NCBI GenBank assembly: GCA_025232375.1
Contig: CP060419.1
Coordinates: 557,001-621,000 of the forward strand
DNA length: 64,000 bases
From: Pseudoxanthomonas sp. NC8
Lineage (GTDB): Bacteria > Pseudomonadota > Gammaproteobacteria > Xanthomonadales > Xanthomonadaceae
Direction: 5' to 3'
Shown: positions 1 through 64,000 of the stretch, piece after piece
How the letters are laid out: each line of letters starts with the position of its first letter
Position numbering within the stretch: position 1 is the first letter of the stretch
The notes under the pieces: generated by a model
What the model was told of the DNA's origin: nothing
The model's database searches: none
Seen by the model: only the letters and a program-made list of their open reading frames with translations
Translations under genes and position numbers: made by a program

Positions 1-251
1 GGGTGCTCGCGGAATTCGGGATCGACGCCGCGCAGTTCGTGATGGTCGGAAATTCGCTGCGCTCGGACATCGAACCGGTGGTGCGGCTGGGCGGCTGGGG
101 CGTGCACATCCCCTATCCGATCACCTATGGGCGCACGAGGACGAACATGGCCTTGGCCGAAGCGCACCCGCGCGTGCGTTCGGTCGATACCGCCACCCAA
201 CTGCCGCAAGCCGTGCGCGAAATCGTGACGGCCGTGCGAAACGCCGGCTGA
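1..251 (+). CDS. HAD-family hydrolase, C-terminal part
   Basis: The window opens inside this gene; only the last 80 or so residues are present and the true start lies to the left. The visible part contains FVMVGNSLRSDI, the last acidic motif of haloacid-dehalogenase hydrolases, in which the aspartate helps bind the catalytic magnesium, followed by GGWGVHIPY. This tail is typical of small soluble HAD phosphatases of unknown substrate. It ends in TGA at 249-251. The family call rests on the motif; the substrate cannot be told. The valine at position 3 could be read as a GTG start but would leave a protein without the nucleophile aspartate. Confidence 0.7.
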   Translation, partial: VLAEFGIDAAQFVMVGNSLRSDIEPVVRLGGWGVHIPYPITYGRTRTNMALAEAHPRVRSVDTATQLPQAVREIVTAVRNAG

Positions 252-359
252 ATGCGTCTGGTGCTGTCGTGACCGGTAACGGTTACAGCGGCGCCGATTA
301 AATTGCGGTTCACCAGAAAAATCGCAACGTCATTGCAACGACCACCTCGGAGCGCTGCC

Positions 360-818
360 ATGACTGCCATCACTTCGCTTGCCCGCTCCCGCAATGCCGC
401 ATGGATCCGCGGCGCCCTGCTGGCCACCGCCCTTGCCGGTGCTGCCGCCGTGCTTCCGGCGACCCGCGCGGAGGCGTCCGAAGTGATGGTCCGTGTGGAC
501 CTGGGCGTGGCCGACGTGATCTTCCGCAGCGGCAACCCGTACTACTACGAGCACGGCTACTACCGGCCGGTGTACGTGGAGTACGACCACTGGCACCGCC
601 CGCGCTACTACCGTTATGCGCCGCGGCCGGTGGTCTACCACCACGCACCACGGCCGCGCTACTACTACGACGCGCCGCCGGCGCATTACCGGGTCAGCTA
701 CGACGACCACCACCATGATCACGGCCGTGGCCACGATCACCACGACCGCGATGGCCACCACGGCAAGAAGGGGCATGGCCACGACAAGCATCGTGGCGGT
801 CGCGGCTGGAGCGATTGA
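360..818 (+). CDS. exported His/Tyr-rich protein
   Basis: A 152-residue protein starting at ATG 360, chosen over an in-frame ATG at 303 because GGAG lies about 10 bases upstream and the product then begins with a good signal peptide (charged N-end, Ala/Leu core, cleavage likely near ATRAEA). The mature part starts with a short conserved-looking stretch (VRVDLGVADVIFRSG), then becomes a low-complexity Tyr/Arg/Pro/His region and a C-terminal tail dominated by His, Asp, Gly and Lys. Such tails often bind divalent metals, but no catalytic domain is visible. No frame break is present. It stands alone, with 107 bases upstream and 154 downstream. Function unknown; periplasmic or envelope location inferred. 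Confidence 0.75.
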   Translation: MTAITSLARSRNAAWIRGALLATALAGAAAVLPATRAEASEVMVRVDLGVADVIFRSGNPYYYEHGYYRPVYVEYDHWHRPRYYRYAPRPVVYHHAPRPRYYYDAPPAHYRVSYDDHHHDHGRGHDHHDRDGHHGKKGHGHDKHRGGRGWSD

Positions 819-972
819 CGGTTGGCGCGTGCGGCGGCTGCATGGACTGGCCAGCTCTGCCACGGGCACTCGCTCCCCGTGCGTCGAGCCGGCGCGATCC
901 GGGCCGGTAGCTGTCCAGGGTGAAGCCAGGCGCCGGCTGACAGCTTCCGGATGCCTGCGGCAGAATCGTCCC

Positions 973-1533
973 ATGGCCCGCCTGCCGCCCCTGAACCACC
1001 TGCCGCTGCGCATCGCCCGCGGCGCTCGCTCTCGCGGTGCCGGTGGTCCATGCGGCAGGCCAAGGCGGCACCCGCTGCCGCCCCGGCGATCGAGGACGCA
1101 CGCCCTTGGCCATGTCACCGGCGATGGCTGGCTCGACGACCGCTTGGCCGACATCGATGACTATGCCGCGCGCCATCCCGACGCCTTCGCCGCCGAGCTG
1201 GAACGTTACGCCGGCGTGCGGCGCGCCTATGTGCGGGGCCTGCTCGTGCAGCCCGGGTGGAGCGGAGGCGACGCCTGGTTCGCGTGCTTCCTGGCCCGGG
1301 CCACCGACGCGACCTGCCGCAGCGTGGTGCGCGCGCGTACCCGCGCGGGGCTGGACGCGGACTGGCAGGAGGTCGCGGCCGGATCGGGCGCACGCCCCGG
1401 CTCGGACGCCTATGCCGCGCTGCGCCTGGCGCTGGCCGACAGCTACCGGCGCTGGGCACGCCCGCTGCAGCCCGATGCGGCGTTGACCCGCGCGCTGCAG
1501 CAGCGCGGGCAACGCGAGCCGCAGGAACACTGA
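973..1533 (+). CDS. exported hypothetical protein (frame broken)
   Basis: The ORF opens at ATG 973 and closes at TGA 1531-1533. Three frame switches are needed: near 1015, near 1055 and near 1105. Each lies where a CCTGG or CCAGG can be restored (for example GCCCTTGGCC at about 1103 for GCCCTGGCC). The repaired product has about 185 residues. It begins with a hydrophobic signal peptide ending near AVPVVHA and continues with an Ala-rich linker and a soluble domain containing GDGWLDDRLADIDDYA and DSYRRWARPLQPD. I do not recognise a family. No operon partner is evident; the next gene is convergent. Confidence 0.55.
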   Translation: MARLPPLNHLPLRIARGARSRGAGGPCGRPRRHPLPPRRSRTHALGHVTGDGWLDDRLADIDDYAARHPDAFAAELERYAGVRRAYVRGLLVQPGWSGGDAWFACFLARATDATCRSVVRARTRAGLDADWQEVAAGSGARPGSDAYAALRLALADSYRRWARPLQPDAALTRALQQRGQREPQEH

Positions 1534-1556
1534 TCGCCGGCGATCGCGGCGCCGCG

Positions 1557-3245
1557 TCAGCTCATCAGCAGGACGATGACGCTGCCCCATAGGTGGTGAG
1601 GAACACGTGGGCGATGGCGACCGAACCGGAATAGCCGATCACTGCAATCGCGCTGCCGCTCTTTTCCTGCAGCGCGGCCAGCCCGGCGGTGAAGGTCTGC
1701 GCGCCGGAGATGGCGCCCAGCAGCAGGATCGGGTTGATCTTCAGCACCTTGCGGCCGAACCACAGTCCCGCCATCAGCGGCACCATGGTCACCACCACGC
1801 CACCGAACAGCAGGCCCAGGCCCGACTCGCGCACCGCCGGCAGGAAGTGCGGGCCCGCACCGAGCCCGACCATGGCCACGAAACCGGTAAGGCCGAAGGA
1901 CTGCATGAACTTGACCGCGCTGTCCGGCACGCGCCCGAACAGCGGTCGGTGCGCGCGGATGTGGCCGGTCACGATTCCGGCCAGCAGCGCGCCGACGCTG
2001 GTGCCGATGGTCACGGTGACGCTGCCCACCGGTACTGCCACCACCGCGCCGAACAGCGCGCCGGCGAAGATCGCCGTGCCCACCGCCACGAAGTCGGTGG
2101 CGTCGGTCGGCTGCACCAGTTCACCCAGGCGCGAAGCCGCGCGCAGCACCGCCGCTTCCGGTCCGGTGAGCCGGACCACGTCGCCGCGTTCCAGCTGGGT
2201 GCGCGTGCCGACCGGGATTTTAGCCCCGGCGCATGATCCGGCGCAGGAACACCGCGCGGGCCTCGTCCAGCGCGGCGATCTCCTCCAGCGGCTTGCCGGT
2301 CCACTCGCCCTTGCTGACGAAGACCTCGTGCGCGGCGGTGGGGATGTCGAGCAGGGGACGGTCGTCGACCTCGTCGGCGCGTTCGCCGATATAGCCGACC
2401 AGGACCTCGCGGCGCCCGCCGACCGCGAGCACGTCGCCAGCCGCGATCCGCATCTCCGGATCCGGATCCAGCAGCTCGCCGTCGCGGCGGACGCGGTGGA
2501 TGAACAGCCGGATCCCGTCGCCGACGCGTTCGGCCTCGGCCACCGTGCGGCCCACGATCGGGGCGGCCGCGCCGACCCGGTAGGCGCGCGTCTCGAACGG
2601 CTGTAAGGCCGAGGCGATGCCGTTGCGCACCCGCACGATCCCGTACTGGGCCTCGAGCTTCAGCGCCTCGGCGACCAGGTCGACCCTCAGCAGGGCAGGA
2701 CCGATCACGGTGCAGGTGAGGATCACGCCGAGGGCGCCGGCCACGTAGCACACCGCATCGGCCACGCCGATGTGGGCCTCGTACATCTGCAGGGTGGCCG
2801 CGTCCAGCGGCAGGGCGCGGATGGCCTCGGCGGCGGTGCCCATCGCCGGCGATTCGGTCAGCGCACCGGAGAGCATGCCTGCGGTAAGGCCGGGGTTGAG
2901 GTCCAGTGCAGCGGCAATGGGCCAGGCTACCAGCAGGCCGACCACCGGCATGAACACGCCGAGCGCGGCGAAGCGCCAGCCGTCGCCCTTCATCGCCGAG
3001 GCGAAGCGCGGGCCGACCTCGTAGCCGATCGCGAACAGGAACAGCAGGAACACCACCGACTTGGCCGTGGCCGACACCGGCACCTCGAACAGCGCGCCGA
3101 CCAGCATGCCGGCCAGCAGCGAGCCGGTGACCCCGCCGAGCGTGAACCCGTACACCTTGCGCGTGCCTACCCAGTAGCCGATGGCCAGCGACAGGTACAC
3201 GCCCATTTCGGGATAACGGGACAGCAGCGAGCTTATCCACTCCAT
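1557..3245 (-). CDS. AspT-family antiporter (aspartate:alanine exchanger type)
   Basis: About 562 residues after repair. The order is typical of the AspT/YidE-YbjL family: a five- to six-helix block (residues 1-160), a central cytoplasmic region with two TrkA-C-like modules (about 200-370), and a second helix block with GTSVGALLAGIVTGHIRA and AISGAQTFTAG. Two breaks are seen: near 2220 (GGGCTAAAATC where GGGCCTGGAAATC fits) and near 1585 (ACCTATGGGG for ACCTGGGG). Family members exchange a decarboxylation substrate for its product or export organic acids; the substrate here is not known. It is the last gene of a four-gene operon with the porin, a second AspT protein and a decarboxylase; the gap to the porin gene is 31 bases. 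Confidence 0.85.
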
Positions 3246-3276
3246 GGGCGCGCTCCCCTTTCGCGTCGGCTGGGCG

Positions 3277-4681
3277 TCAGAGCGACGGCGGGTCGTAGAA
3301 GACCATGATCCTGAGATCCTTCAGGTCGTCGCTGGCCGGGTCGCTCTGCGAGACCTCGGCGTAGCGCAGCCTGACCATCAGCCCCTTCAGGATGCCTTCG
3401 GGCACCTTCCACTGCACGTTGAAGTCGGTCTCGTTGCGCGCGAACTCGGTCGGCGCGCCGGGATCGGTGCCGTCCACGTACAGCGCGTAGATGCCCAGCC
3501 CCTTGACCGACTTGAAGTCGTAGCCCAAGCGCGCCAGCCACGCCGATTCGCCGTCGCGGTTGAAGTCCTCGACCTGCACGCTGGTGAAGCCCGGGTAGCC
3601 GCTCCACGGGGCCTGCATGTTGGTGTTGCCGTCCGCGTCGGTATAGGCCAGGTGAACAGCGCGCCGCCGTAGGCCAGTTCGGCCTTGGCGCCCCACTGGT
3701 AGGAATCGAAACTCCTGCCCTTGAGCAGGTTGTCGCCGTTGCTGGACTGGTCGGTGAACTGCACGGCGGTGCGAAGTTTCCAATCGTCGGACAGGGCGAA
3801 GGCGTACTTGGCCTCGGTGTAGAAGATGCCGATGATGTCGTCGCTGTAGTAGCCGATCGCACCGACCGACAGGTCGCCCAAGGTGTAGTTGGCACCCAGC
3901 GAGTAGACGCCGCGTTCCACCCCGGCCGGGGCACCGGCATCCTTGGCCATCGACACGAAGTGCTCGGAGGTGCGCTCCTTGATCTTGTCGAAGTAGCCGG
4001 CGCCGACCCGCCATTCGCCCGTTTCCTTGTCGCCGTACAGGCCCTGCAGTACCGCGGCCTGGAAGGTGACCGGGGTCATCCGCACGTCGTTGCGGCTGAT
4101 GTAGGGGGTATCGAAGCCGCGCCGGCCCACGGTCAGGCGGGTGTCCCTGGTTGAGCAGGAACTCGCCATAGACCTCGCCGAGCACCGTATAGCCTTCCTG
4201 CCCGGGCGCCAGCAGGCCGGCGCCGTCCTTGTCCTCCGGCCCATACAGCTTCTGCGAGGTGTAGCCGGTGGCACCGAAGGCGAAGAACTCGCGGAAGTAG
4301 CCGGTCTTCAGTCCCGCCGAGCCACCGAGTGCCCACGATTCCATCTGGCTGCTGTCGTACTTGTCGCGGTCCAGGTAGTAGGTGCGCGCCTGCACGTCGA
4401 ACTTGGTGTCCTCGAACGCCTTGCGCCGGGTCTCCCGGATCCACTCACTGCGTGAGGGGCCGAAACTCTGGTCCATGTGGACCTGGCCCTGTTCGATCGA
4501 GCTTGGCGCCAAGGTCGATCTCGTCGATCGCCTCCAGTTCCTCCGGTACCGGTGTCTGGGCGGTGGTCTGGGCGAGCGCGGTACCCGGCAGGGGCAGGCT
4601 GCCTGCAAGCAGGCAGCCGGCCGTGGTGGCGAGGAGCGCCGGTCCCCGGCGGCGCTGTCTGGGATCCAGGCTGATATCCAT
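3277..4681 (-). CDS. OprD-family outer-membrane porin
   Basis: About 468 residues after repair. ATG 4681 has AGGAG six bases upstream and opens a signal peptide ending near GTALAQ. The mature protein shows the OprD pattern: an N-terminal beta region (FDVQARTYYLDRDKYDSSQM), RLTVGRRGFDTPYISRNDVR followed by MTPVTFQAAVLQGLYG, and a C-terminal LRYAEV and DLKDLRIMVFYD strand pair. Breaks near 4505 (CCTTGG for CCTGG), 4150 (CCAGGGAC for CCAGGAC) and 3655 all sit on CCWGG-like words. OprD porins pass amino acids, peptides or organic acids through the outer membrane. Placement between two AspT antiporters suggests it serves the same substrate. Specificity cannot be read from sequence. Confidence 0.8.
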
Positions 4682-4706
4682 GTCGTTCTCCTCGTCTGGC
4701 AACGCT

Positions 4707-6405
4707 TATTGCGAAAGCACCATCGCGAAGTAGCCGAACACCGTGTAGAGCACGCCGGAAATCGCGTAGCCCACCGGGAAGCCGACCCACGGCACGCTGC
4801 TGTCGATCTCCTTGGACGCCTCGCGGGCCGGACCGGAGTGCGAGCGCGAGCCCGCCACGCCGCCCATCAGCACCGCCGGGTTGATCTTGAAGATGTGGTA
4901 GCCGATGGCCCAGGGTGATGAACGGCGGCACCGTGCTGGCGACGAAGCCGGCCAGGAAGATCTTCACCGCGATCGAGCCGGTCAGCTGCTCGAGCAGGGT
5001 CGCGCCGGCATTGATGCCGACGATGGCGATGAAGGTCACCATACCTAGGTCCTCGAGGATGTTGCGTGCCGCGTTCGGCGTGCTGCCGAAGAAGCGCAGC
5101 CGCGACACCAGCGAGGAGACGAAGATGCCCGACAGCAGCAGGCCGCCGGCATTGCCCGGGCCCACGCTGAAATCGCCGACCGGCACGTTGATCTTGCCGA
5201 TCAGCAGACCCAGCACCATGCCGCCGGACAGGGTCAGCAGGTCGGTGGAGGTGCTCGGCCGGGCGATCTTGCCGAGCAGCGCGGCGGCCTTGTCCACCGC
5301 GCCCTTGAGGCCGGTGACGTAGAGCACGTCGAAGCGCTTGAGCTCGGTGTCGCGGCCGACCGGGAACGGCTCGCCCGACCGCTCCATGCGCGTGACCTGC
5401 AGCTGGCCGGCGAAGTCCTCGGTGGACAGCGTGCTCAGCGGCTGGCCGACCACGCCCTTCTCGGTCACCACGATCTCGGCCTGGTCCAGCGGCACCGACA
5501 ATGCCTTCGGATCGTCGACTTCGGTGCCGAGCAGCCCGGGTTCTCGGTCAGGTCGCCGAGTCGGCCGCCCAGCGCGACCACGTCCCCCACCTGCAACGCC
5601 AGGCCCGGATCGGCGCCGAGGTTTTCCTCGCCGCGGCGCACGTTGACGATGCGGTACTGCGGGTACTTGCCGCGGAACTGGCCGATGCTCTGCCCGGCGG
5701 TGGCGGTGTTCTCCAGGCGGTAGGCACGCAGGCCGCCACCGCGGTAGCCGGTCAGCGCGGCGTCGTCGACGTTCTTGACGCCATGGGCCAGTTCGTATTC
5801 CTTTGCCGCCTTGCGCGCGTCCACACCCCACCAGCGCGGCAGGTACTTGCAGATCAGGATGATGCCGACCGTGCCCCAGATGTAGGTCACGCCGTAGCCC
5901 AGCGCGATCATGCCCGAGACCTGCTCGGCGGTCGTGCCCGGCGGCAGCTTGTAGGCGCCCTGCGTCACCGCCATCTCGGCAGTGCCGATCGCCGCGGACA
6001 TGGTCTGCGAGCCGGCCAGTACGCCGCCGGCGGCACCCGCAGGCAGGCCAAGCCAGCCGGACATCAGCACCACCAGGCCTGAGCCGAGGAACGAGCACAC
6101 CACCGCGAGGATGGTGAAGGTGACGCCGTCCTTCTTCAGCGCATTGAAGAACGCCGGACCCACGCGCAGGCCCACGCCATACATGAACAGGTAGTAGAAG
6201 AGCGACTTGGCGAAGTTGTCGAGCTGCAGCTTGACGCCGTAGGTCGACGCCCACGTGGCGAGCGCGGCACCGACCACGACCGCCGCGGCGACCATGCCAA
6301 GGCCGTAGCCCTTGACCGAGAATTTGCCGACGACCACCGCCATGCCCACTGTGAAGAACAGCAGGATGTAGGGGTTGTCGGTAGGAACTGGAAGAAGGCT
6401 TGCAT
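4707..6405 (-). CDS. second AspT-family antiporter
   Basis: About 566 residues, the same architecture as the copy at 1557-3245 but clearly diverged, so the pair is an old duplication or two independent members. N-terminal helices contain GMVAAAVVVGAALATW and GVGLRVGPAFFNALKKDG; two TrkA-C modules sit in the middle; the second helix block holds GGMVLGLLIGKINVPVGDFS and ends at FAMVLSQ. Breaks: near 6382 (CCTACC for CCTGACC), near 5540 (GGGCTG for GGGCCTG) and near 4912 (ACCCTGGGC for ACCTGGGC). The start follows the decarboxylase stop by 31 bases, so the two are very likely co-transcribed and functionally coupled as decarboxylase plus exchanger. Confidence 0.85.
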
Positions 6406-6436
6406 GGCAGCAGTCTCCGGATGTGGTCTGCGAGGA

Positions 6437-9181
6437 TTACCTGTCTGCGCCGGCGCGACGCCCGGCGAGGAAGGACGGCTTGATCAGCTTGATGCCCCTG
6501 GGCGGCGTTGTAGCCGTGGATCTCCTTCACATCGAGCTTGCGCATGAAGGCGATCGTGTCGGCGGTGATGATCTGGCCCGGAACCATGATCGGGAAGCCG
6601 GGCGGGTAGGGGATCACGAAGTTGGCCGAGACCATCTCCGGCCCGTCGCGCAGGCGTGCATCGACATCCGGGCTGAGCAACTTGACGTACTCGCAGTTTT
6701 CCTCGTCGTAGGCCATGTAGAACGCCGGGCGCATGTGGCCCTCGTTGCTCGGGCCGGACGGGTCGTCGCGGAAGGCATCGTGGAAGCGGCTGAAGTTGGG
6801 CAGGTCGGGGACGTCGGTCATCAGCGACTTCACCCGGTCGGCGAAGGCCTGCTTGCCGGCGGGGCTTTATAGGTAAGGCGCGCCTCGATCTCGCGTGACA
6901 GGTCGGCCAGCGCCTTGATCAGCAGCGCCGCGTCGCTGTGGGTGTTGTTGATGTTGGTCTGGACCAGGATGCTGTTGCGCGAGGTCTTGTTGATCTGGAT
7001 GTCGAAACGCTCGGCGAGCATGCCCTTGAACTGGGTGCCGTCGAAGCCGGCGGCGCCGCAGATCACGGTCAGCCGGGTCGGATCCAGCGCGAACTCGTCT
7101 TCGTCCCACGCCTCTGCGGTCTGCGCCCAGGTGCCGTGCGGCGGGCCATAGTCCTTCAGCCCGGACGGGCGGAACTCGGCCGGGATCATCTCCTCCGGCG
7201 TGGCCACGCGGAAGTACTTGGAGATCAGCGGATGGGTGTTCACCGCCTGGCGGATGCGCAGGGCCAGGTCGGTCATCTTCAGGGTCAGCGCGTAGCCTTC
7301 CAGTTCCATCTGCCGCCGCGCCATAAGGTCCAGCGAGGCGATCAGCTGCAGGTTGGGCGAGGTCGAGGTGTGGGCGAGGAACGCTTATGGAAGGTGCCCT
7401 GCACCTTGTGGAAGTCCTCGTCCCAGATGAGCATCATCGAGCCCTGGCGGAACGCCGACATCGACTTGTGGGTCGAGTTGGTCTGGTAGACGCGGATGCG
7501 CACCTTGTCCGGGTCGGGCAGCCGCTTCGCATCGAGCGAGGCCGGGTCCTTCGGGTCCAGCGCGGGGGCGTCCTTGGCCCAGCCTCGTATTCGGCGCGGT
7601 AGGCCGCGCTGCGGTAGCGCGTGGTCAGCGCGGCGGCGGCGCCCATCGCGGTGCGACGCCGGTGCAGCGGGTTGAAGCGGGCGAAGCCGAACTAAGGCCT
7701 CGTCCCACAGGAACACCAGGTCCGGCTTGATCGCCAGGCATTCCTCCATGACCTTGCGCGGGTTGTACATGTGCCCGTCGAAGGTGCAGTTGGTCATGTC
7801 GATGGCCTTGACCCGGTCCAGCGTGCCGGCGGCCGCGCAGTCCAGCAGCGCCTGCTTGATCGTGCGCAGCGGCACCGCGCCGTACATCGAGTACTGGGTC
7901 AGCGGGAAGGCTTCGACGTAGTAGGGCTGCGCGCCGGCCAGCACGAAGCCGTAGTGGTGCGACTTGTGGCAGTTGCGGTCGACGATGACGATGTCGCCGG
8001 GCTTGCACACCGCCTGGACCACGATCTTGTTCGAGGTCGAGGTGCCGTTGGTGCCTGGGTAGGCGCGCTTGGCGCCGAACGCGCGCGCGATCGCCTCCTG
8101 CGCGCGCTTGATGTTGCCGGTCGGCTCCAGCAGGCTGTCCAGGCCGCCGGTGGTCGCCGAGGACTCCGCGAACAGGATGTTGGTGCCGTAGAACTGGCCC
8201 ATGTCGCGGATCCAGTTCGAGCCGAAGATCGACTTGCCGCGGGCGATCGGCAGCGCGTGGAAGGTGCCGATCGGGCGCAGCGCGTATTTCTTCAGGTTGT
8301 CGAAGTACGGCGTCTCGTAGCGGTCCTTGATCCCGTCCAGGATCGCCAGGTGGATCTCCATCGGCTCTTCGACATGGTGGAACATGCGCCGGATCGGCGC
8401 GGCCTCCTCGCTGCCGGCCAGCTGCTCGGGCGCGCGGTCGGAGAGCAGGTACAGGTCCAGCTCCGGCCGGTAGTCCTTGATCTTGCCCGCCAGCGCGGTC
8501 GCCAGCGCGCCCGGCGTGAGGCCGTCGGGGCGCGCCTCGAAGTGGCGGGCCAGGAAAGCCTTGAGGTCGGGCAGGTCGTGGCGCGAGGCGAAGCCGAAGC
8601 CGTCGATCAGCACCACCGCCTGCAGGTCGAAGTTGACCATCACCGCCAGCAGCGCGTCCTCCAGGCTGCCCACGTGCACCGCCGAGTACTGGAAGGCATC
8701 GTCGCCGCGCTGCATGCGGCGCATCTCTTCCTTCGCCCGCGCCCACTGCGACGGATCGCTCGGGGTGACGACGAGGACTTCGAAGTACGGCTTGTCCGGG
8801 GTGCCGGTGACGTCCGGGGGCAGCGCGTCGAGCACGGCGCGGTCGGCAGCGTCGGCGGTGTCCCAGGCGGCTTCGTCGCGGCGGTAGTCGCCCGACAGCA
8901 GCGCGCCGGACACCTTCTGCACCAGGCGGGCGAAGAGGGCGGCGTCGGACCCGTCCAGTGCATCGCGCAGTGCCGCCAGCAGGCGTTCGCCCGGATACGC
9001 CCAGCAGTACTCGAGCCGGGTCGCGGTGTCGAACAGCTTCGTGCACGCGTCGCGCGCGGTCGCGCGGGACGATTCGGGCGCGCTGGCCCTGAGCGCGGGC
9101 GGCCGCATTGAGCTGGCGCCACTGGTCATTGCGCAGCGAGGCGGCGACCAGCACGTTGGAAAGGGTCGGATCCTGACTCAT
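6437..9181 (-). CDS. Orn/Lys/Arg-type amino acid decarboxylase (PLP, large form)
   Basis: A biodegradative-type fold-I PLP decarboxylase. Visible landmarks are the N-terminal wing region with DAFQYSAVHVGSLEDALL, GTNGTSTSNKIVVQAV, DRNCHKSHHYG, CTFDGHMYNP, FLWDEA, and the PLP-lysine motif NSTHKSMSAFRQGSMML (lysine near 7466, about residue 570). ATG 9181 has AGGAG nine bases upstream. Breaks near 9110, 7695, 7583, 7387, 7324, 6868 and 6495 repair at CCTGG or CCAGG words. The repaired length of about 915 residues is well above the 710-760 usual for E. coli CadA/AdiA. Substrate (arginine, lysine or ornithine) is not decided by what I can see. First gene of the operon with two AspT antiporters and a porin. 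Confidence 0.85.
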
Positions 9182-9498
9182 GACCTTGTACTCCTGGAAG
9201 TGGGGCGATGCGATGCAACGCCGCCCGGAGGGACCGGGGGCGGTCCGGGGGCGGTAGATCCTTGGCAGCACGCTAGAGCCCGAGGGGGGCCTTTGTAGTG
9301 GCCCTTGGGAGTACGGGACGGGCACAAGCGACACGCCTGGCGTCATGCGGGTCCTGTCGCGGGGACAGGCGATGCGGGTGGAACATCCCGCCTGGACGAC
9401 CCCGGCGGGTGGATCGCGAACCATGGCCCCGGAGGCGGAGGGGTGATCCACGCGGTGGGCGGAATGCCACGGCCGATCCCCGCCCGCCGCGTGCGGGT
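9182..9498. other. 317-base intergenic region upstream of the decarboxylase operon
   Basis: No credible gene. It separates the beta-barrel gene (stop at 9499) from the decarboxylase start at 9181 and should hold the decarboxylase promoter and the end of the upstream operon. Two short hairpins are visible: GGACCG with CGGTCC around a G-run near 9230, and CCTGTC with GGACAG near 9355. Neither is followed by a T-run, so a terminator role is only possible. No clear -35/-10 pair is seen. Confidence 0.4.
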
Positions 9499-10321: not shown

Positions 10322-10344
10322 GGCGGCTCCCTTGGAGGTCGGGG

Positions 10345-20673: not shown

Positions 20674-21358
20674 ATGCGTATCCTTCTGGTCGAAGACGAA
20701 GCGCCGCTGCGGGAAACGCTGGCCGCGCGCCTCAAGCGCGAAGGTTTCGCGGTCGATGCCGCGCAGGACGGCGAGGAGGGCCTGTACATGGGCCGCGAGG
20801 TGCCGTTCGATGTGGCGATCATCGACCTGGGCCTGCCGAAGATGTCGGGCATGGAGCTGGTCAAGGCGCTGCGCGACGAGGGCAAGAATTTCCCGGTGCT
20901 GATCCTCACCGCCCGCTCCAGCTGGCAGGACAAGGTCGAGGGCCTCAAGCAGGGTGCTGACGACTACCTGGTCAAGCCGTTCCACGTCGAGGAGCTGCTG
21001 GCCCGCCTCAACGCGCTGGTCCGCCGCGCCGCCGGCTGGAGCAAGCCGGTGCTGGAGTGCGGCCCGGTCGCGCTGGACCTTGGCCGCGCAGACGGTCAGC
21101 GTGTCCGGCAGCAACGTCGACCTGACCAGCTACGAGTACAAGGTGCTCGAGTACCTGATGATGCACGCGGGCGAACTGGTCTCGAAGGCCGACCTGACCG
21201 AGCACATCTACCAGCAGGACTTCGACCGCGATTCCAACGTGCTCGAGGTCTTCATCGGCCGCCTGCGCAAGAAGCTGGATCCGGATGGCGAGCTGAAGCC
21301 GATCGAGACCGTGCGCGGCCGCGGCTACCGCTTCGCGATCTCCCGCACCGACGGCTGA
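20674..21358 (+). CDS. phoP: PhoP-like OmpR-family response regulator
   Basis: About 227 residues. Receiver: RILLVEDEAPLRETLAARLK, Asp51 in AIIDLGLPKMSG, LILTARSSWQDKVEGLKQGA, DYLVKPF. A winged helix with LTSYEYKVLEYLMMH and NVLEVFIGRLRKKLDPDG and RGRGYRFAI follows from about residue 135. One break at 21078 (GACCTTGGCC for GACCTGGCC) lies between the domains. GGGAG stands nine bases before the start. The kinase starts 34 bases downstream. In relatives this pair controls genes for low magnesium and antimicrobial-peptide tolerance; here the inputs are inferred from family only. Confidence 0.88.
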
Positions 21359-34234: not shown

Positions 34235-35243
34235 TCAGGCGTGGGCCACGGCGCGGCGCGCCGCCGCGACGATCCGTTCGACGCTGGGCAGGTACTTCAT
34301 TTCCAGGCGGAACAGCGGGATGTGCGTGTCGTAGCCGGTGACGCGCTCGACCGGCGCGACCAGGTCGTACATCGACGACTCGGTAAGGCGCGCGGCGATC
34401 TCGGCGCCGAAGCCGGCGCTGCGCGGGGCTTCCTGCACGATCACGCAGCGGCCGGTGCGCGACACGGATTCGGCGATTGTGTCGAAGTCGAGCGGGCGCA
34501 ACGTGGCCACATCGATGACCTCGGCGCTGATGCCTTATGGGCCAGCGCATCGGCCGCTTCCAGTGCTTCCTTCACTGCGCGCCCGGGCCCACCAGGGTCA
34601 CGTCGGTGCCGTCGCGCAGCACGAAGCACACGTCCAGCGGCAGCGCCTCGCCATCGTTGGCGACCACTTCCTTGTACTGGCGGTAGAGCCGCTTGGGCTC
34701 CATGTAGATCACCGGATCCTGCTCGCGGATCGCCGCCAGCAGCAGGCCGTAGGCGCGCTGCGGCGAGGACGGCATGACCACGCGCAGGCCGGGCACGTTG
34801 GTGAAGACCGCTTCGTTGGCCTCGCTGTGGTGTTCCGGCGCGCGGATGCCGCCGCCCCACGGTACCCGCAGCACCATCGGGCAGTGCAGGCGGCCGCGGG
34901 TGCGGTTGCGCAGGCGCGCGGCGTGGCAGATGAGATGGTCGAGCATCGGATACACGAAACCGTCGAACTGCGCCTCGGCCACCGGCTTCATGCCCTGCGC
35001 GGTAAGGCCGACTGACAGGCCGGCGATGGTGGTCTCGTCCAGCGGGGTGTCGAGCACGCGCTGCGCGCCGAACTTCTGTTGAAGCCCGGCCGTGGCGCGG
35101 AACACGCCGCCATTCACGCCGACGTCCTCGCCCAGCACCAGCACCGACGGATCGTGCTCGAGCTCCCAGGCCAGTGCCTGGGTGATCGCCTCGATGAGCG
35201 TGATCGGCTGGGTCACGGGAGACGCGGTCGGGATCGCGGTCAT
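34235..35243 (-). CDS. bkdA2: 2-oxoacid dehydrogenase E1 beta subunit
   Basis: About 335 residues: ITLIEAITQALAWELEHDPS, VLGEDVGVNGGVFRATAGLQ, RVLDTPLDETTIAGLSVGL, AEAQFDGFVYPMLDHLICHA, VPWGGGIRAPEHHSE and the C-terminal VIVQEAPRSAGFGAEIAAR. With the alpha subunit it binds thiamine diphosphate and decarboxylates branched-chain 2-oxoacids. Breaks near 34580 and 34533 (CATAAGG where CACAAGGG fits) shift the frame for about 60 bases. ATG 35243 is the conventional start; an upstream ATG at 35357 has GGAG before it and is in frame, which would add 38 residues. Confidence 0.9.
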
Positions 35244-36662: not shown

Positions 36663-37529
36663 ATGACCCTCGACAAGAACCAGCGTCCGCTCGAACCGGG
36701 CATCCATACCGACCTGCAGGGCCGCATGACCTATGCCGGCTACCTGCACTTATGGAGCGCCTGCTGTCGGCACAGCAGCCGTTGTCCGATCCGCCGCACC
36801 ACGACGAAATGCTGTTCATCGTCCAGCACCAAGGTCTCGGAGCTGTGGCTGAAACTGCTGATGCACGAGCTGCAGGCCGCGCGCGGATTCCTCAGGGACG
36901 ATAAGGTCTGGCAGTGCCGCAAGGTGCTGGCCCGCGGCAAGCAGGTGCTGCGCCAGCTGACCGAACAGTGGTCGGTGCTGGAGACGCTCACCCCGTCCGA
37001 GTACATGGGCTTCCGCCACCTGCTCGGGCCATCCTCCGGCTTCCAGTCGTTGCAGTACCGGGCGGTGGAGTTCCTCTTTGGCAACAAGAACGCCGGCATG
37101 GTCCGGGTGTTCGCCCACGATCCGGAGGGACAGGCGGTGCTGCGCGCCGAACTGGCGCTGCCGAGCCTGTACGAGGAGTTCCTGCGCTACCTGGCCCGCT
37201 TCGGCCACGCGATCCCGGCCGCGTACCTGGACGGCGACCGCGACTGGTCGGCCGCGCATGTCTCCGACGCGGCGCTGCTGCCGGTGTTCGAGCGGATCTA
37301 CGAGGACACCGACCGCTACTGGCGCGAGTATTCCCTTTGCGAGGACCTGGTCGACCTGGAGACGCAGTTCCAGCTCTGGCGGTTCCGGCACATGCGCACG
37401 GTGATGCGGATCATCGGCTTCAAGCGCGGCACCGGCGGCTCGAGCGGCGTAGGCTTCCTCAAGGAGGCGCTGGAGCTGACCTTTTTCCCCGAGCTGTTCG
37501 AGGTCCGGACCAGCATCGGTCCGGGCTGA
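36663..37529 (+). CDS. kynA: tryptophan 2,3-dioxygenase
   Basis: About 288 residues. Heme enzyme that opens tryptophan to N-formylkynurenine. Typical features: [20 protein letters not shown] (after repair), [73 protein letters not shown] with the proximal heme His in the last block, and [15 protein letters not shown] near the end. Breaks at 36748 (CACTTATGGAG for CACCTGGAG) and 36828 (CACCAAGGTC for CACCAGGTC). No kynB or kynU nearby, so the rest of the pathway is elsewhere. Confidence 0.94.
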
Positions 37530-37738: not shown

Positions 37739-39270
37739 ATGAGCGCCGACGTCGTCGAGCCCAAGGTCGCGGCCACGCCGCCGCAGCCGCCCTCACTCCC
37801 CGAGTTCGCCCAGGCCCCTGGGCCATCCACGCCCGCTGTGGATGCTGTTCATGACCGAGTTCTGGGAGCGCTTCGCGTTCTATGGCATCCGCTGGGCGCT
37901 GGTGTACTACATCGTCGCGCAGTTCTTCGGCGGCGATCAGGCGGGCGAGGCCTCGGCCAGCAAGCTCTACGGCGCCTACCTGGCACTGGTCTATGCCGGC
38001 GCCATCTTCGGTGGCTATGTCGCCGACAAGATCGTCGGTTACCAGCGTTCGATCCTGATCGGCGCGGTGATCATGGCGACCGGACTGTTCATGATCGCGA
38101 TCCCCAATGACCAGGTGTTCCGGCTTGGCCTTAGCCACCGTGATCGTCGGCAACGGCCTGTTCAAGCCGATCATCTCCACGCTGGTCGGCAAGCTCTACG
38201 CTACCGGCGACGAGCGTCGCGATTCGGGCTTCACCATCTTCTACATGGGCATCAACGCCGGTGCCTTCGTCGCGCCGATCCTGACCCAGATCCTGGCCGA
38301 AAAGGTGTTCGGAACCCGGGGCATGCCGGCCTACAAGGTCGTGTTCATCGCCTCCGGCATCGGCATGCTGCTGAGCTTCTTCTGGTTCTGGTTCGGTCGC
38401 CGGCAGCTGCAGGGCATCGGCCTGCCGGCCGTGGGCGCCGAGAGCCGCGTGCGCGTCGCGCTCGTGGCGGTCGGCGCGCTGCTGGCGATCCCGGTGTTCT
38501 ATTTCCTGCTCAACATCGACGCCACCGCGCTGCAGTGGTACGTCCTTACCCCGATGTTCCTGGCCCTGTGCGCGCTGCTGGTGCTCGAAGGTGTCCGCAA
38601 CGGGCCGGTCGCGCGGGACATGGTCATCGCGATGCTGGTGATCTTCACCTTCAATATCCTGTTCTGGTGTTTCTTCGAGCAGGCCGGCAGCTCCTTCAGC
38701 TTCCTTGGCCGAGAAGATCGTCAACCGTGACCTGTGGGGCTGGGAGTTCCCCAAGGCGTGGTTCCAGTCGGTGAACTCGGTGGCGATCATCACCATGGCG
38801 CCGCTGATGGCCTTGGCTGTGGGTCAAGATGGGCAAGGCCAATCCCTCGATTCCGCGCAAGTTCGGTATGGGCATCATCTTCAACGGCCTTGGCCTTCCT
38901 GCTGCTGATGTTCGCCCTGTCCAGCCTGGTCGATCCGTCGACCAACATGATCCCGTTCTGGACCCTGTTCGCGGTGTACTGGATCCAGTCCATCGGTGAA
39001 CTGTGCCTGTCGCCGATCGGCCTTTCGATGGTGACCAAGCTGGCTCCGCTGCGCCTTGGTCGGCTTCGGCATGGGCGGCTGGTTCCTGTCCACCGGCATC
39101 GGCAACAACCTGTCAGGGCTGTTCGCCAGCCATGCCAGCGGCGAGGGCGGCATGACCGTGGCCACCGCGCAGGCGGCCTATACCAGGGATTCTGGATCCT
39201 GCTGATCGGCGGCGTTGCCCTGTTCCTGATCGCACCGCTGATCCAGAAGCTGATGCACGGAGTGAAATAG
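37739..39270 (+). CDS. POT-family proton-coupled peptide transporter
   Basis: About 510 residues with 12-14 membrane helices. Landmarks: MTEFWERFAFYGIRWALVYY (the ExxER proton-coupling motif region), GAIFGGYVADKIVGYQRSIL, GNGLFKPIISTLVGKLY, FTIFYMGINAGAFVAP, FWCFFEQAGSSFSFLA and YWIQSIGELCLSPIGLSMVT. At least seven breaks, nearly all CCTTGG for CCTGG (38703, 38811, 38889, 39053), CTTAGCC at 38131, CCCTGG at 37817 and ACCAGGG at 39183. Takes up di- and tripeptides with protons. It fits the surrounding amino-acid catabolism genes. Confidence 0.92.
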
Positions 39271-40612: not shown

Positions 40613-41739
40613 ATGAGCGCGCAATCGCAAGCCCTCCCCCTGCCGCCGCCCCGAACGCGGGCATGCCCGTCAGCCCGTTCGACAACCCGATGGGGATCGA
40701 TGGCTTCGAATTCGTCGAGTTCGCCGCCCCGGCCGGGCAGGCCCGGCAGCTGCACGACTATTTCCGCCGCCTCGGCTTCGTCCAGGTCGCGCGGCACAAG
40801 ACCCGCCCGATCAGCACCTACCGCCGGGGCGACTGCACCTTCCTGGTCAACGAGGATCCGGACTCCTTCGCCGCGCGCTTCGCCGAGCAGCATGGCCCCA
40901 GCGCCTGCGGCTTTGCGATCCGGGTCAAGAAGCTGGCCGACTGGGCGCGCACCCCAGGCGCTGAAGAACGGCGCCGAGGCGTTCGACGCGCGCGACGAAC
41001 TGAGCAAGGCGGTGGCCGCGCCGGTGATCAAGGGCATCGGCGACTGCATGCTCTACATCGTCGACCGCTACGACGAGCAGGGCACGATCCACGACCCGGA
41101 CTACGAATACCTGCCCGGCGTGGAGCTGATGCCGCAGGGCTTCGGCCTGACCTTCATCGACCACCTGACCCACAACCTCTACCACGGCAACATGGCCAAG
41201 TGGGCCGACTACTACGAGCGGCTGTTCAACTTCCGCGAGATCCGCTACTTCGACATCAAGGGCGCCAAGACCGGCCTGCTGTCCAAGGCGATGACCGCGC
41301 CGGACGGGATGGTCCGGATCCCGCTCAACGAGTCGTCGGACCCGAAGTCGCAGATCAACGAATACCTGGACACCTACCACGGCGAGGGCATCCAGCACAT
41401 CGCCTGCTTTACCGACGACATCTACGCCACGGTGGAGAAGATGCGCGCGGCCGGCGTGGAATTCCTCGACACGCCCGACACCTATTTCGACGTGATCGAC
41501 CAGCGCATCCCGGACAGCGGCGAGGACGTGGAGCGCCTGCGCCGCAACCGGATCCTGATCGACGCCGACCCGGAGATAAGGCGGCGCCTGCTGCTGCAGA
41601 TCTTCACCCAGAACGCGGTCGGTCCGATCTTCTTCGAGATCATCCAGCGCAAGGGAAATGAAGGCTTCGGCGAGGGCAACTTCCATAGGCCCTGTTCGAG
41701 AGCATCGAGCGCGAGCAGATGCGGCGCGGCGTGCTCTGA
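40613..41739 (+). CDS. hppD: 4-hydroxyphenylpyruvate dioxygenase
   Basis: About 375 residues. Converts 4-hydroxyphenylpyruvate to homogentisate with non-heme iron. Start ATG 40613 is chosen because restoring CCTGG near 40642 links [10 protein letters not shown] to [20 protein letters not shown]. Iron ligands lie in [29 protein letters not shown] and [20 protein letters not shown]. Breaks near 40960 and 41685 (TTCCATAGGCC for TTCCAGGCC); the latter restores [16 protein letters not shown]. Upstream of hmgA by 71 bases. Confidence 0.94.
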
Positions 41740-48802: not shown

Positions 48803-51125
48803 CACCTTCTCCGGCGCCAGCCCGCGCGCCGCAGCAGCGCGTGCACGATCAGCGCGGCGATGCCGAATACGGTGATCTCGCCGAAGGTGTCGAAGCCGCG
48901 GAAGTCGACCAGGATCACGTTGACCACGTTGCGGCCGTACGCCTCGGGCAGCGCGCGCGCCAGCATCTCCAGGCTCGCCGGTTCGCCGGGCGGGCGGGTC
49001 ATCACCGCATACGAAAGCAGGCCGATGCCGATGCCTGCCGCCAGCGCCACGGCGACGTCGCGGACGCGCCGCCGCGGTGCGCGCTCGGGCGGCGAGCGCG
49101 GCGGCAGGTAGTGCAGGCCGAGCAGCAGCAGGGCCAGGCTGACCATCTCCACCAGCAGCTGGGTCAGGTAAGGTCCGGCGCCGACAGGAACACGAAGGTA
49201 AGGCTGACCATCAGTCCGGCGCCGCCGAGCACGATCAGGGCCAGCAGGCGCTGCCGGTAGATCTTCACCGTGTACAGCGCGCAGGCGACCAGCACCAGCC
49301 ACAGCAGCCAGCCCAGCAGCGGCATCGGCTGCGGGGCGCGCAGTGGCGGCAGCGCATGCGTACCGGACACGAACGGCGCCGCGCCGGCCGCCAGCGCCGC
49401 CAGCACCAGCCAGACCAGACTGCGCTGCAGGCTGCCGTTGGCGATCGCGGCGGTGAAGCGCTCGGCCAGCGCGTACAGCGCCTCCATGTTCCAGCGGAAC
49501 AGGCGGCGCCCGAACGAGCGGCGCACGTTCGCATGCAGGTCCAGCAGCCGGCGCAGGCCGAAGTAGAGCGCGATGCCGCCGACGGTGCCGGCCATGCTCA
49601 TCAGCAGCGGCTTGTTGAAGCCATGCCAAATCGCCAGGTCGTACGACGGCATCGCGCTGCCGAGGATCGCCGAGGCACCGGCATGCAGCACCGGCGCCAC
49701 GGTCCAGGCCGGGAACATGCCCACCGCCACGCACAGCAGGACAAGCACTTCGACCGGGATCTTCATCCAGCGCGGCGGTTCGTGCGGCGTCCGGTCCAGC
49801 CCGTGCGGCCCGTCGCCGAAGAAGGTCTCGTGGACGAAGCGCAGGCTGTAGGCGACGCCGAACGCGGCGTAGAGCAGCGCGGCGATGCTGATCGCGATGG
49901 CCATCCCGCGGTGGCCGTCGATGTCCAGCGCCTCGGCGAAGAACATCTCCTTGGACAGGAAGCCGTTGAGCAGCGGGATGCCGGCCATCGCCAGCGAGGC
50001 GGTGATCGCCAGCGCGCTGGTGACCGGCATGAACCTTCGCAGGTTGCCGAGCCGGCGCATGTCGCGGGTGCCGGTCTCGTGGTCGATGATGCCGGCGGCC
50101 ATGAACAGCGAGGCCTTGAAGGTGGCGTGGTTGAGGATGTGGAACACGCCGGCGACCACCGCCATCGGCGTGGACAGGCCGAACAGCAGGGTGATCAGGC
50201 CCAGGTGCGAGATCGTGGAGTAGGCCAGCAGGCCCTTGAGGTCGTGCTGGAAGATCGCGTACCACGCGCCGAGCAGCAGGGTGATCGCACCGATGCCGCT
50301 GACGGTGTAGAAAAACAGGTCGGTGCCGGCCAGCGCCGGATGCAGCCGCGCCAGCAGGAACACGCCGGCCTTCACCATCGTCGCCGAATGCAGGTAGGCC
50401 GATACCGGCGTCGGCGCGGCCATCGCGTGCGGCAGCCAGAAGTGCAGCGGGAACTGCGCGCTCTTGGTGAACACGCCGGCCAGCATAAGGCCCAGCACCC
50501 ATGGATACAGCGCGCTGGCCCGGATCAGGTCGCCGGAGGCGAGCACGGTGTCCAGGTCGTAGCTGCCGACGATGCGCCCGATCAGCAGCACGCCGCCGAG
50601 CAGGGCCAGGCCACCGCCGCCGGTGATCGCCGGGGCCATGCGCGCGCCTTCGCGTGCGTCCTGGTTCCTGTACCAGAAGCCGATCAGCAGGAAGGAGCTC
50701 AGGCTGGTCAGTTCCCAGAACACCAGCAGCAGGAGCAGGTTGCCGGCGATGACCACGCCCAGCATCGAACCCATGAACAGCAGCAGGCAGCCGAAGAAGC
50801 GCGGCGCGCTGTCCTCCGTGGTAAGGTAGTAGTGCGCGTACATCACTACCAGCGCGCCGATCGCCAGCACCAGTCCGGCGAACATCCAGGCCAGTCCGTC
50901 CAGGCGCAGGTCGAAGTCCAGGCCCAGCTGCGGGATCCAGGCGTGGTCGGCGCGCAGCGTCCAGCCGTGCAGTACCGCCGGCGTGGCCCAGGCCAGCACC
51001 AGCAGGCCCAGCAACGGCGCTGCCGCGGCGATCCACGCCACCTGTCCGCGCGGGCGCATGCGCAGGAACACCATCGCCGCGGCCATGGGAACGGCAGGGC
51101 GAGCAGGATTTAGGAACGGGATCAT
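48802..51125 (-). CDS. mnhA: Mrp-type antiporter subunit A
   Basis: About 774 residues; NuoL-like core plus C-terminal MBH-type domain. GIGALVVMYAHYYL-like region, LLLLVFWELTSLSSFLLIGF (key Glu), FTKSAQFPLHFWLPHAMAAP (key Lys), YLHSATMVKAGVFLLARLHP, LAYSTISHLGLITLLFGLST, HILNHATFKASLFMAAGIID and MAGIPLLNGFLSKEMFFAEA. The C-terminus VNVILVDFRGFDTFGEITVF is a typical subunit A/B junction. A false stop near 49168 (GACCTTACCTGACC) repairs to LALTQLLVEMV. A second break near the start (51085-51115) disturbs the first helix. First gene of mnhABCDEFG. Confidence 0.9.
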
Positions 51126-56110: not shown

Positions 56111-56262
56111 GCGGCTGCACGCCGGACCCGATCCGGTTAAAGTTGGCGACATGTTCGGCCAGACGACCAGGCTTTCCCTTGCTTCCGCGCGCCGGTGCTG
56201 GCGATGGCGGCCTTATGCCGTCGTCCCATGCCATGCCCCGATCCGCCGCAAGGAACCCCGCC

Positions 56263-57739
56263 TTGGTCACGCCCGAACAGTTCCGGCAGCACGCTGCCGC
56301 TGAAGAGAATTTCAACCGCGTCCCCGTCGTCCGCGAAGTGCTGTCCGACCTGGACACGCCGCTGTCGGTCTACCTGAAGCTCGCCGACGCCCCGCACACC
56401 TACCTGCTCGAATCGGTCGAAGGCGGCGAACGCTTCGGCCGCTACTCGATCATCGGCCTGCCGGCCGCGCGCACGGTCGCCTTCCGCGGCCATTCGATGG
56501 AAGTGCGCGAGCACGGACAGGTCATCGAGCAGCGCGAGGTCGCCGATCCGTTCGCCGAGGTCGAGGCGCTGCGCACCTCCTATTCGGTACCGAAGCTGGA
56601 GGGCCTGCCGGGCTTTACCGGCGGCCCGGTGGGCTGGTTCGGCTTCGAGTGCATCGGCTACATCGAGCCGCGCCTTACCGGCGGCGACAAGCCCGACGAA
56701 CTCGGTACGCCGGACATCTACCTGATGCTGTCCGAAGAGCTGGCGGTGTTCGACAACCTCAAGGGCCGGCTGTACCTGGTCGTGCATGCGGACCCGCGCG
56801 AGCCGGGCTCGTGGGACGCGGCGCAGGCGCGGCTGGACGCGCTGGTCGACAAGCTGCGCGCGCCCGGCAGCTATCCGCTGCCGCTGAGCCGCGACGTGCT
56901 CGACGAGAGCCATTTCGTTTCCGGCTTCACCCGCGAAGGCTTCATCGAGGCGGTGGAGAAGTCCAAGGAATACATCCGCGCCGGCGACGTGTTCCAGGTG
57001 GTGCTGAGCCAGCGCATGAGCGTGCCGTTCAACGCGCGGCCGGTGGACGTGTACCGCGCGCTGCGCGCGCTCAACCCGTCGCCGTACATGTACTTCCTCG
57101 ATACCGGCGAGGTGCAGGTGGTCGGCTCGTCGCCGGAGATCCTGGTCCGGCAGCAGGGCGACGAGGTGACCGTGCGCCCGATCGCCGGCACCCGCCCGCG
57201 CGGCGCCACCCCGGCCGAGGACCTGGCGCTGGAGCAGGACCTGCTCGCCGATCCGAAGGAACGCGCCGAGCACCTGATGCTGATCGACCTGGGCCGCAAC
57301 GACGTCGGCCGCGTCGCCGAGGCCGGCAGCGTCGAGGTCGGCGAGCGCTTCGTGATCGAGCGCTACAGCCATGTCATGCACATCGTCAGCGAGGTCACCG
57401 GCAAGCTGCTAAGGCCTGAGCTACGCCGACGTGCTGCGCGCGACCTTCCCGGCCGGCACGGTCAGCGGCGCGCCGAAGATCCGCGCGCTGGAAGTGATCC
57501 GCGAACTCGAGCCGGTCAAGCGCAATGTCTACGCCGGCAGCATCGGCTACATCGGCTGGCACGGCGACGCCGATACCGCGATCGCGATCCGCACCGCGGT
57601 GATCAAGGATGGCCACCTGCACGTGCAGGCCGGTGCCGGCATCGTCTACGACTCCGACCCGCAGGCGGAATGGGACGAGACCATGAACAAGGGCCGCGCG
57701 CTGTTCCGCGCGGTGGCGCAGGCGGCGAAGGGGTTGTGA
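56263..57739 (+). CDS. trpE: anthranilate synthase component I
   Basis: About 492 residues. TrpE converts chorismate and the ammonia from TrpG to anthranilate. [20 protein letters not shown] holds the LLES feedback motif for tryptophan; the chorismate core has [61 protein letters not shown] and [21 protein letters not shown] 56263 has AAGGAA seven bases upstream; ATG 56215 and 56233 are alternatives. One break near 57410 (CTGCTAAGGCCTGAG) shifts the frame. Its stop overlaps the next start (TGATG). Confidence 0.93.
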
Positions 57740-61838: not shown

Positions 61839-61857
61839 CCGTGCGCGGCGCCTGCGC

Positions 61858-63194
61858 TCAGGCCGCCGCCTCCGGCAGCATCACCGCCACGCACAGTCCG
61901 CCGTCGGTACGGTTCTGCAGCGACAGGCGTCCGCCATGCGCCTCGACGATCTCGCGGGTCAGGCCAAGGCTAGCCAGTACCATTCCGCTTGGTCGAATAG
62001 AACGGCAGCAGCGCGTTCTCCAGCACCGCCTCGTTCATGCCCGGGCCGCGGTCGAGCACCTCGATCCGGGTCCAGCCGGGCAGGCGCAACAGGCGCACGC
62101 GCACCTCGTCGCTGGGTGGGGTGGCGTCGTTGCCGGCCTCGTGCGCGTTCTTGAGCAGGTTCAGCAGCGCCTGTTCCATCTGCGCCGGGTCCACCTTCGC
62201 CTGCAGGCTTTCGCTGGCGCCTTCCAGTTCGAAACCGATCTGGCGCTGCAGCCGGCCGAGGAAATCGCGCCAGACCACCGCCTGCAGCTGCGGTTGCGGC
62301 AGCTTGGCGAAGCGCGCATAGCCGCGGATGAAGCCTTAAGGTGGCGGGCGCGGTCCTCGATCGTGGAGAACACCTCGCCCAGGCGTTCGTGGCGGCCGCG
62401 CCGGACCAGTTCGGCGCCGGAATGCGCGAGCGAGGCGATCGGCGCCAGCGAGTTGTTCAGTTCGTGGCTGATCACCCGGATCACCTTCTTGGAGTCTGCA
62501 CCTCCTGGCGGCGCAGTTCCGGGGTGAGCAGGCGGATCAGCAGCAGTTCGTGGCGGCGGCCGTTGAGGGTGAAGGTGCGCCGCGACAGGTGGTAGACCTC
62601 TTCCTCGTCGTCCTCGGCGGGCACCGCGAACAGGCTGTCGCCGCCGCGTGCCAGCGCCTCGCGCAGCTCGACCGGCAATGCGTCGAGCAGCCCGTCCATG
62701 TGCTGGCCTTCCAGCTTGCGTCCATCGTTGAGCAGCTTGCGCGAGGCGAGGTTGGCATAGACCACGCGGCGCACGCCGTCGCCGCCGTCGGCCGACAGCA
62801 GCATCGCCACCGGCGTGTTCTGGACCATGGTGTCCAGCAGCAGTTCGCGCTGGACCAGTTCCTGGCGCTGGTCGCGCAGCACGTCGCCCAGCTCGCCATG
62901 GGCGCGGACCAGCTCGCCCAGTTCGTCGCCGCCGTGCCAGTGCACGCCGAAGTTGAACTCGCCGTCGCGATAGGTGTTGACGCTGCCAGCCAGGGCGCGG
63001 AACAGCGCGCGCATCGGCGCCAGCGCGCGATGCAGGCTCCACCACATCAGGCCGAGCAGGACCAGCACCGAAAGCACGGCCAGCACCCAGCCGCGATCGA
63101 TCCAGTAGGCGAACGTCCACGGCAGGGCCGCCGCCAGCACCAGTACCGGCAGCAGGCGCACGAACAGGCGCAGGGTCAGCGTGCGGCGGATCAT
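61858..63194 (-). CDS. NtrY-like membrane sensor histidine kinase
   Basis: About 445 residues. Two N-terminal helices ([20 protein letters not shown] and [20 protein letters not shown]), a HAMP-like linker, a PAS region ([20 protein letters not shown]), H-box [20 protein letters not shown] (His near 62463), N-box [17 protein letters not shown] and G-box [20 protein letters not shown]. The tail [20 protein letters not shown] closes it. Breaks near 62497, 62337 (CTTAAGG) and 61982. [11 protein letters not shown] is the NtrY-type H-box. It follows its sigma-54 regulator gene by 22 bases. Confidence 0.85.
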
Positions 63195-63216
63195 CGGCGC
63201 ACCCGCGTCGGCCGGT

Positions 63217-64000
63217 TCATGCGGGCTTGAGTCCGTAACGTTCCATGCGCCGGTACAGCGCCTGCCGGCTCATGCCCAGTTCGGCGGCGGCGGCTGGGCG
63301 ATCACGCCGTCGGCGCGCTGCAGTGCGGCTTCGATCTGCTCGCGTCCGGGCTCGCGCGCCGGGCCGCTGCGCATGGCCGCCGCGCGTGGCAGGCCCAGGT
63401 CGGCGACCTCGATCCGCGGCCCCGTCGCCAGCAGCTGCGCGCGCTGGATCACGTTGCGCAGTTCGCGCACGTTGCCCGGCCAAGGATGGCGCTGCAGCGC
63501 ATTGGCGGCGCCGTTCGACAGCGGCTTGCCGCCCGCGCCGAAGTGCTCGGCCAGCGGCAGGATGTCGCCGGGGCGCTCGGCCAGCGGCGGCATCGCCAGT
63601 TCGATGGTGTTGAGCCGGTAATACAGGTCCTCGCGGAAGCCGCCGTCGCGGATCATCGCCGGCAGCTCGGCGTTGGTCGCGCTGACCACGCGCACCTTGA
63701 CCTGGCGTTCGCGGTTGGAGCCCAGCCGCGCGAAGCGGCCGGTTTCCAGCACGCGCAGCAGTTTCATCTGCCCGGCCGGCGGCAGGTTGCCGATCTCGTC
63801 CAGGAACAGGGTGCCGCCGTCGGCGGCCTCGAACTTGCCCTCGCGTGCCTTGTTGGCGCCGGTGTAGGCACCGGCCTCGGCGCCGAACAGCTCGGCCTCG
63901 ATCAGGTCGGCCGGCAGCGCGCCGCAGTTGAGGGTGACGAACGGACCGTCGCGATGGGCCGAGTTGGCCTGGATGATCTCGGCGATCTTTTCCTTGCCCG
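63217..64000 (-). CDS. sigma-54-dependent response regulator (NtrC family), C-terminal part
   Basis: The 5' part lies beyond the right edge. Visible: most of the AAA+ domain with GPFVTLNCGALPADLIEAEL, FGAEAGAYTGANKAREGKFE (GAFTGA loop with Tyr for Phe), GTLFLDEIGNLPPAGQMKLL (Walker B), FREDLYYRLNTIELAMPPLA, and WPGNVRELRNVIQRAQLL, then a Fis-type helix-turn-helix AAAELGMSRQALYRRMERYG. One break near 63290 (CCCAGCCGCC for CCCAGGCCGCC). With the kinase at 61858 it forms a two-component pair that activates sigma-54 promoters. Targets unknown. Confidence 0.9.
   Translation of the reverse strand, partial: GQGKDRRDHPGQLGPSRRSVRHPQLRRAAGRPDRGRAVRRRGRCLHRRQQGTRGQVRGRRRRHPVPGRDRQPAAGRADETAARAGNRPLRAAGLQPRTPGQGARGQRDQRRAAGDDPRRRLPRGPVLPAQHHRTGDAAAGRAPRRHPAAGRALRRGRQAAVERRRQCAAAPSLAGQRARTAQRDPARAAAGDGAADRGRRPGPATRGGHAQRPGARARTRADRSRTAARRRRDRPAAAAELGMSRQALYRRMERYGLKPA

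Follow-up and report, generated by a model that had tools for sequence, protein, structure and literature searches.

Why do so many genes appear broken in a stretch of bacterial DNA that belongs to a single, uninterrupted contig? The window, i.e., the whole stretch of 64,000 nucleotides analysed here, spans positions 557001-621000 of a one-contig, 3.54-Mb genome with a G+C content of about 70%, whose estimated completeness is 57.12% despite the single contig. A sequence-only reading had attributed the frame breaks and false stops of the window to systematic base-calling errors at modified cytosines in CCWGG words. The window was aligned with five genomes of the same genus (G008, G001, G002, G012 and G021), and a sixth one, G006, joins the per-relative control counts. 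The identity of the relatives to the window is 71-92%, depending on the aligned piece; G021 is a distant relative, and the alignment with G001 extends over 27.9 kb of the window. The nearest named matches of the trpE gene belong to Lysobacteraceae (Pseudoxanthomonas, Lysobacter), with DNA identity of 82-83% to Pseudoxanthomonas sp. PXM01 and Lysobacter xinjiangensis and of 88-92% to the same-genus genomes. Window positions 1-18000 are mostly covered by G002 and align little with the other four of the five relatives, so this is possibly a variable region. Searches with ARAGORN and with Rfam at gathering scores detected a single RNA gene in the window, a tRNA-Thr (anticodon tgt) at 26426-26501.

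Split genes and frame changes

Out of 31 reference genes, 30 have a match in the window that spans 70% or more of the gene, and 19 of the 30 are split between two or more frames. Tested likewise, G012 has 2/30 split genes, G021 1/31 and G008 2/27. Three of the split genes of the window are represented by the following pieces:

38125..38706, minus strand: top-scoring piece of a gene (723-residue reference) found in five pieces and three frames
49170..51125, minus strand: best-scoring of four pieces of a 945-residue reference gene in three frames (proton antiporter and MbhD domains)
56128..57411, plus strand: top-scoring piece of a gene resembling trpE (547-residue reference; anthranilate synthase and chorismate-binding domains) in two frames

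For a frame-changing event to be accepted, three or more relatives had to agree on it, as had 75% of the relatives with coverage at the position. With this rule, 94 events are found in the 44,074 comparable bases of the window (2.13/kb), as compared to 7 in G008, 3 in G002, 5 in G012, 3 in G001, 10 in G021 and 9 in G006 (0.08-0.26/kb). Under a looser rule the window has 3.30/kb, G021 comes near it with 2.36/kb, and the other four relatives show 0.92-1.08/kb; the stricter rule drops G021 to 0.26/kb. In 53 of the 94 cases the relatives carry CCWGG at the position of the event, vs. 4.7% of random positions (n = 4000), and none of the 37 events in the six relatives falls on CCWGG. The claim that nearly every repair restores CCWGG thus holds for the larger part of the events, yet is overstated, since 41 of the 94 lie off this word. 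For the latter, an ordinary background of long-read errors is required.

This background was followed in the pentamer counts. Off CCWGG, the indel rate is 2.33% into the window and 1.68% between relatives. Once words near CCWGG are removed, no second error motif stands out among words with at least 150 occurrences; the top ones are CACTG (7.7%; relatives 3.7%), GAACC (6.6%; relatives 2.1%) and runs of C or G. ACTGG/CCAGT off CCWGG shows indels into the window at 4.7% (15/317) vs. 0.9% between relatives, possibly by chance.

Altered CCWGG sites and control words

The relatives define 201 conserved CCWGG sites, only three of which fall in the first 16 kb of the window. At 39 of them the window has an indel, 58 are substituted and 104 are intact, hence the effect is partial, as the sequence-only reading had also observed. 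Among the relatives, indels at conserved CCWGG number 0/164 in G008, 0/188 in G002, 0/159 in G012, 0/131 in G001, 2/171 in G021 and 3/203 in G006. The clustering of breaks on CCWGG is therefore confirmed (39/201 vs. 0-3 per relative). The contrast of 39/201 with 0/511 pooled from G008, G002 and G012 gives a Fisher p of 2e-23, with the same loci counted in each genome and thus not independent.

The enrichment is at CCWGG, not at CCSGG. In the window CCSGG has an indel at 1/101 sites, which differs from 39/201 with p of 9e-7. The other control words of the window have indels at 3/223 (CGWGG/CCWCG), 1/40 (GGWCC), 2/240 (GCWGC), 0/149 (CGWCG) and 10/351 (GCSGC). In a ranking of the 287 pentamers with at least 150 occurrences, in which each relative contributes its own count and one window site can thus enter at most five times, CCWGG is first for indels into the window with 225 of 1402 pair occurrences (16.0%), vs. 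0.9% between relatives. The second word is TGCCA/TGGCA (20/206, 9.7%), and CCCGG/CCGGG shows 5.0% vs. 3.4% between relatives. This comparison with matched words turned out to be strongly favourable to the proposed clustering. Furthermore, CCWGG occurs at 4.64/kb in the window and 4.50/kb elsewhere in the genome, while the relatives have 6.37-9.17/kb; a lower density is expected here if many sites are misread.

These counts bear on the idea that the strain has undergone genuine decay, with mass formation of pseudogenes regardless of motif. The many broken genes and the low completeness would fit it. However, decay has no reason to prefer CCWGG over CCSGG, CGWGG, GGWCC, GCWGC and CGWCG, and relatives 71-92% identical to the window carry only 0.08-0.26 frame-changing events per kb vs. 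its 2.13. We regard the chance that decay explains the pattern as negligible.

The altered sites recur in a few forms, as the following examples illustrate:

1..64000, no strand: region with CCWGG indels or in-frame changes that are absent from the relatives (compared with the relatives)
21078..21083, plus strand: altered CCWGG, now CCTTGG (CCWGG in 4/4 covering relatives)
34384..34388, minus strand: CCWGG altered in frame to CCTTA (TAAGG on the plus strand), one of 12
36829..36834, plus strand: altered CCWGG, now CCAAGG (CCWGG in 5/5 relatives)
38130..38134, plus strand: altered CCWGG, now CTTAG (CCWGG in 5/5 relatives)
38703..38708, plus strand: altered CCWGG, now CCTTGG (CCWGG in 4/5 relatives)
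41683..41689, plus strand: altered CCWGG, now CCATAGG (CCWGG in 5/5 relatives)

Of the 39 indels, 26 make the site longer, by 1 or 2 bases, and the other 13 make it 1 to 3 bases shorter. The in-frame change from CCTGG to CCTTA affects 12 of the 201 conserved sites of the window, as against 0/203 in G006, 0/164 in G008, 0/188 in G002 and 0/159 in G012. The density of the word CCTTA is 0.78/kb in the window and 0.93/kb over eight 20-kb stretches taken elsewhere in the genome, while six relatives range from 0.00 to 0.14/kb. With 14-23 copies per 20 kb in all eight further stretches (160 kb of 3.54 Mb, by word count only), the pattern extends beyond the window. The suggestion that rare words mark in-frame versions of the change is borne out for CCTTA but not for TTA, which at 1.88/kb lies within the 0.61-2.24/kb of the relatives. 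The raw CCTTGG count was rejected as a genome-wide marker, being barely higher in the window (1.00/kb) than in the relatives (0.55-0.91/kb).

Each of the 21 individual sites listed by the sequence-only reading has the listed form, or the added form CATTATGG (39850), within 13 bases on either strand. In 15 cases CCWGG is present in half or more of the covering relatives, and 13 of the 21 have, in addition, a length difference that changes the frame. Sites 7324, 13262, 16988 and 58432 have one covering relative only. The positions given as 40365, 58432 and 13262 are off by 7-10 bases, and 40365 is in fact CCAAGG and 13262 CCTTGG, swapped with respect to the list.

Flanks may matter. With the sites oriented as CCTGG, 26/58 are altered when the next base is C, 8/38 when it is A and 0/20 when AC follows; this count drops 46 plainly substituted sites and many flanks were compared, so it is a lead only. 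Written as CCTGG, 19 of 51 altered sites are changed in the right half only and 6 of 51 in the left half only. The thought that the reads of one strand are to blame was dropped: 12 of the 19 right-half sites are CCTTA, classed after inspection, and among the 39 indels the halves stand at 7 vs. 6.

The methylase locus and a relative that carries it

The sequence-only reading predicted a C5 methyltransferase gene in the strain and saw none in the window, and the gene search agrees with both. All three PF00145 matches of the genome form one locus in three pieces at 2517855-2519093 (contig C1), approximately 1.9 Mb away. The genes of the set (L029:3157-6652; genome 2.517-2.521 Mb) are present in the order Vsr piece, C5 methylase, PF15515 (MvaI/BcnI) endonuclease and, in reverse, a second Vsr-like piece that is just under Pfam's cut-off. 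The assembled methyltransferase gene lies in three frames, and the Vsr gene is also in pieces. A CCTTGG word is located near the Vsr frame change and CCTGG words near both methylase frame changes; the frame change of the endonuclease showed no word of these types.

MvaI cuts CCWGG and BcnI cuts CCSGG. The endonuclease, a 254-residue piece downstream of the PF00145 pieces, matches PF15515 with E of 1.5e-62, R.MvaI with 1.8e-5 and R.BcnI with 0.034. Its whole counterpart in G006 matches R.MvaI with 8e-5 and has no R.BcnI match up to E of 10. The endonuclease is nearer to R.MvaI and the errors fall at CCWGG rather than CCSGG; the locus may have CCWGG specificity. Close matches of the endonuclease appeared in 3 of 149 sampled genomes of the family (this genome, G006 and G114), with weak ones in two more.

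G006, a complete one-contig genome of the same genus, serves as a natural control. There the set is unbroken, with Vsr, a methylase of 472 residues and an endonuclease of 400 residues, and the methylase shares 67-87% identity with the methylase pieces studied here. This relative lacks the pattern: indels are seen at 3/203 CCWGG and 3/99 CCSGG, and 0 of its 9 frame-changing events fall on CCWGG. If the G006 enzyme is active, methylation alone would not alter the DNA.

Could the changes nevertheless be real? The 5-methylcytosine of CCWGG deaminates, and the strain might truly carry mutations at such hot spots. The deamination form CTTGG is indeed found at 4/201 sites, and the assembly has the Vsr repair gene broken into pieces. 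However, CTTGG is about equally common in the relatives (2/164, 3/188 and 2/159; 0/203 in G006), deamination yields C-to-T changes rather than indels of 1-2 bases or GG-to-TA, and G006 has the same genes without such a pattern. Moreover, 19 broken genes among the 30 matched would be difficult to reconcile with the life of a free cell. Mutation hot spots are thus a very improbable source of the pattern.

Another possibility is that long-read errors at CCWGG have a different cause, either N4-methylcytosine or a bias of the caller for CCWGG in high-G+C DNA. M.MvaI itself is an N4 methylase, and 5-methylcytosine is here the predicted type of modification. On the other side, the genome gives no match to PF01555 (N4/N6 methylase) at E of 0.001, although split genes could hide one, and it contains a C5 methylase and Vsr. 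In addition, CCSGG is similar in composition and unaffected. We assign this possibility a small probability.

Probable base-calling errors at methylated CCWGG

The explanation that we hold with high confidence is that the frame breaks and false stops arise from long-read consensus errors at 5-methylcytosine in CCWGG, methylated by the Vsr/C5 methylase/MvaI-BcnI system. The proposal of systematic base-calling errors at modified cytosines is supported by the CCWGG control counts and by the C5 methyltransferase gene outside the window; base calling itself is the probable cause, and the platform was presumably nanopore, most likely Oxford Nanopore. The distant C5 methyltransferase, predicted to be active and CCWGG-specific and assumed to be functional despite its three-frame assembly, would methylate CCWGG. 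The methyl group would shift the pore signal at the site, the caller would then write a wrong base or a wrong number of bases, and the assembly would have been left uncorrected by accurate reads or by a methylation-aware model.

An artefact of methylation at CCWGG is already of a known, published kind (PMC6591954). In the available text of that study, Wick et al. (2019) describe poor performance at Dcm sites for every ONT base caller used with a default model and place about 70% of the ONT consensus errors of a Dcm-methylated Klebsiella in CCAGG/CCTGG. As in that case, CCAGG/CCTGG come foremost here with homopolymers behind, the share being about 70% there and 53/94 frame-changing events here. 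In contrast, the host here belongs to Lysobacteraceae and carries a restriction-modification set instead of the Dcm of Enterobacteriaceae, and nanopore is its presumed platform; single forms like CCTTA are not described in the portions of PMC6591954 consulted. According to the accessible parts of Lohde et al. (2024; PMC11610573), methylation also induces nanopore errors at other motifs. These are likewise strain-specific and lie around methylated motifs but, unlike here, are mainly purine or pyrimidine ambiguities and not CCWGG indels. The strain specificity of such errors is also noted in the available passages of PMC12016153, and those of PMC8495745 and the abstract of PMC11649196 yield nothing decisive. 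Our literature search found no paper on methylation-linked nanopore frameshifts in Lysobacter genomes.

The locus itself resembles type II restriction-modification of the MvaI/BcnI kind, with a PF15515 endonuclease beside a PF00145 methylase, a pairing also present in the annotation of two plasmids, one from Vibrio and one from Phaeobacter. At the present locus, by contrast with this kind of system, Vsr stands before the methylase, a Vsr-like piece lies behind the endonuclease, and the genes are split in the assembly.

It is tentatively suggested, with some doubt on our side, that a deposited assembly alone, without reads, records a methylation motif: the indel ranking puts CCWGG first, and a matching methylase locus is in the genome. 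If true, ranking indel words over many poor long-read assemblies could predict what methylases of unknown specificity target. This assembly is not a trustworthy basis for calling genes broken or absent or for counting pseudogenes, and the genome is best flagged. For the organism itself, the error pattern predicts an active CCWGG methyltransferase in a strain of Lysobacteraceae.
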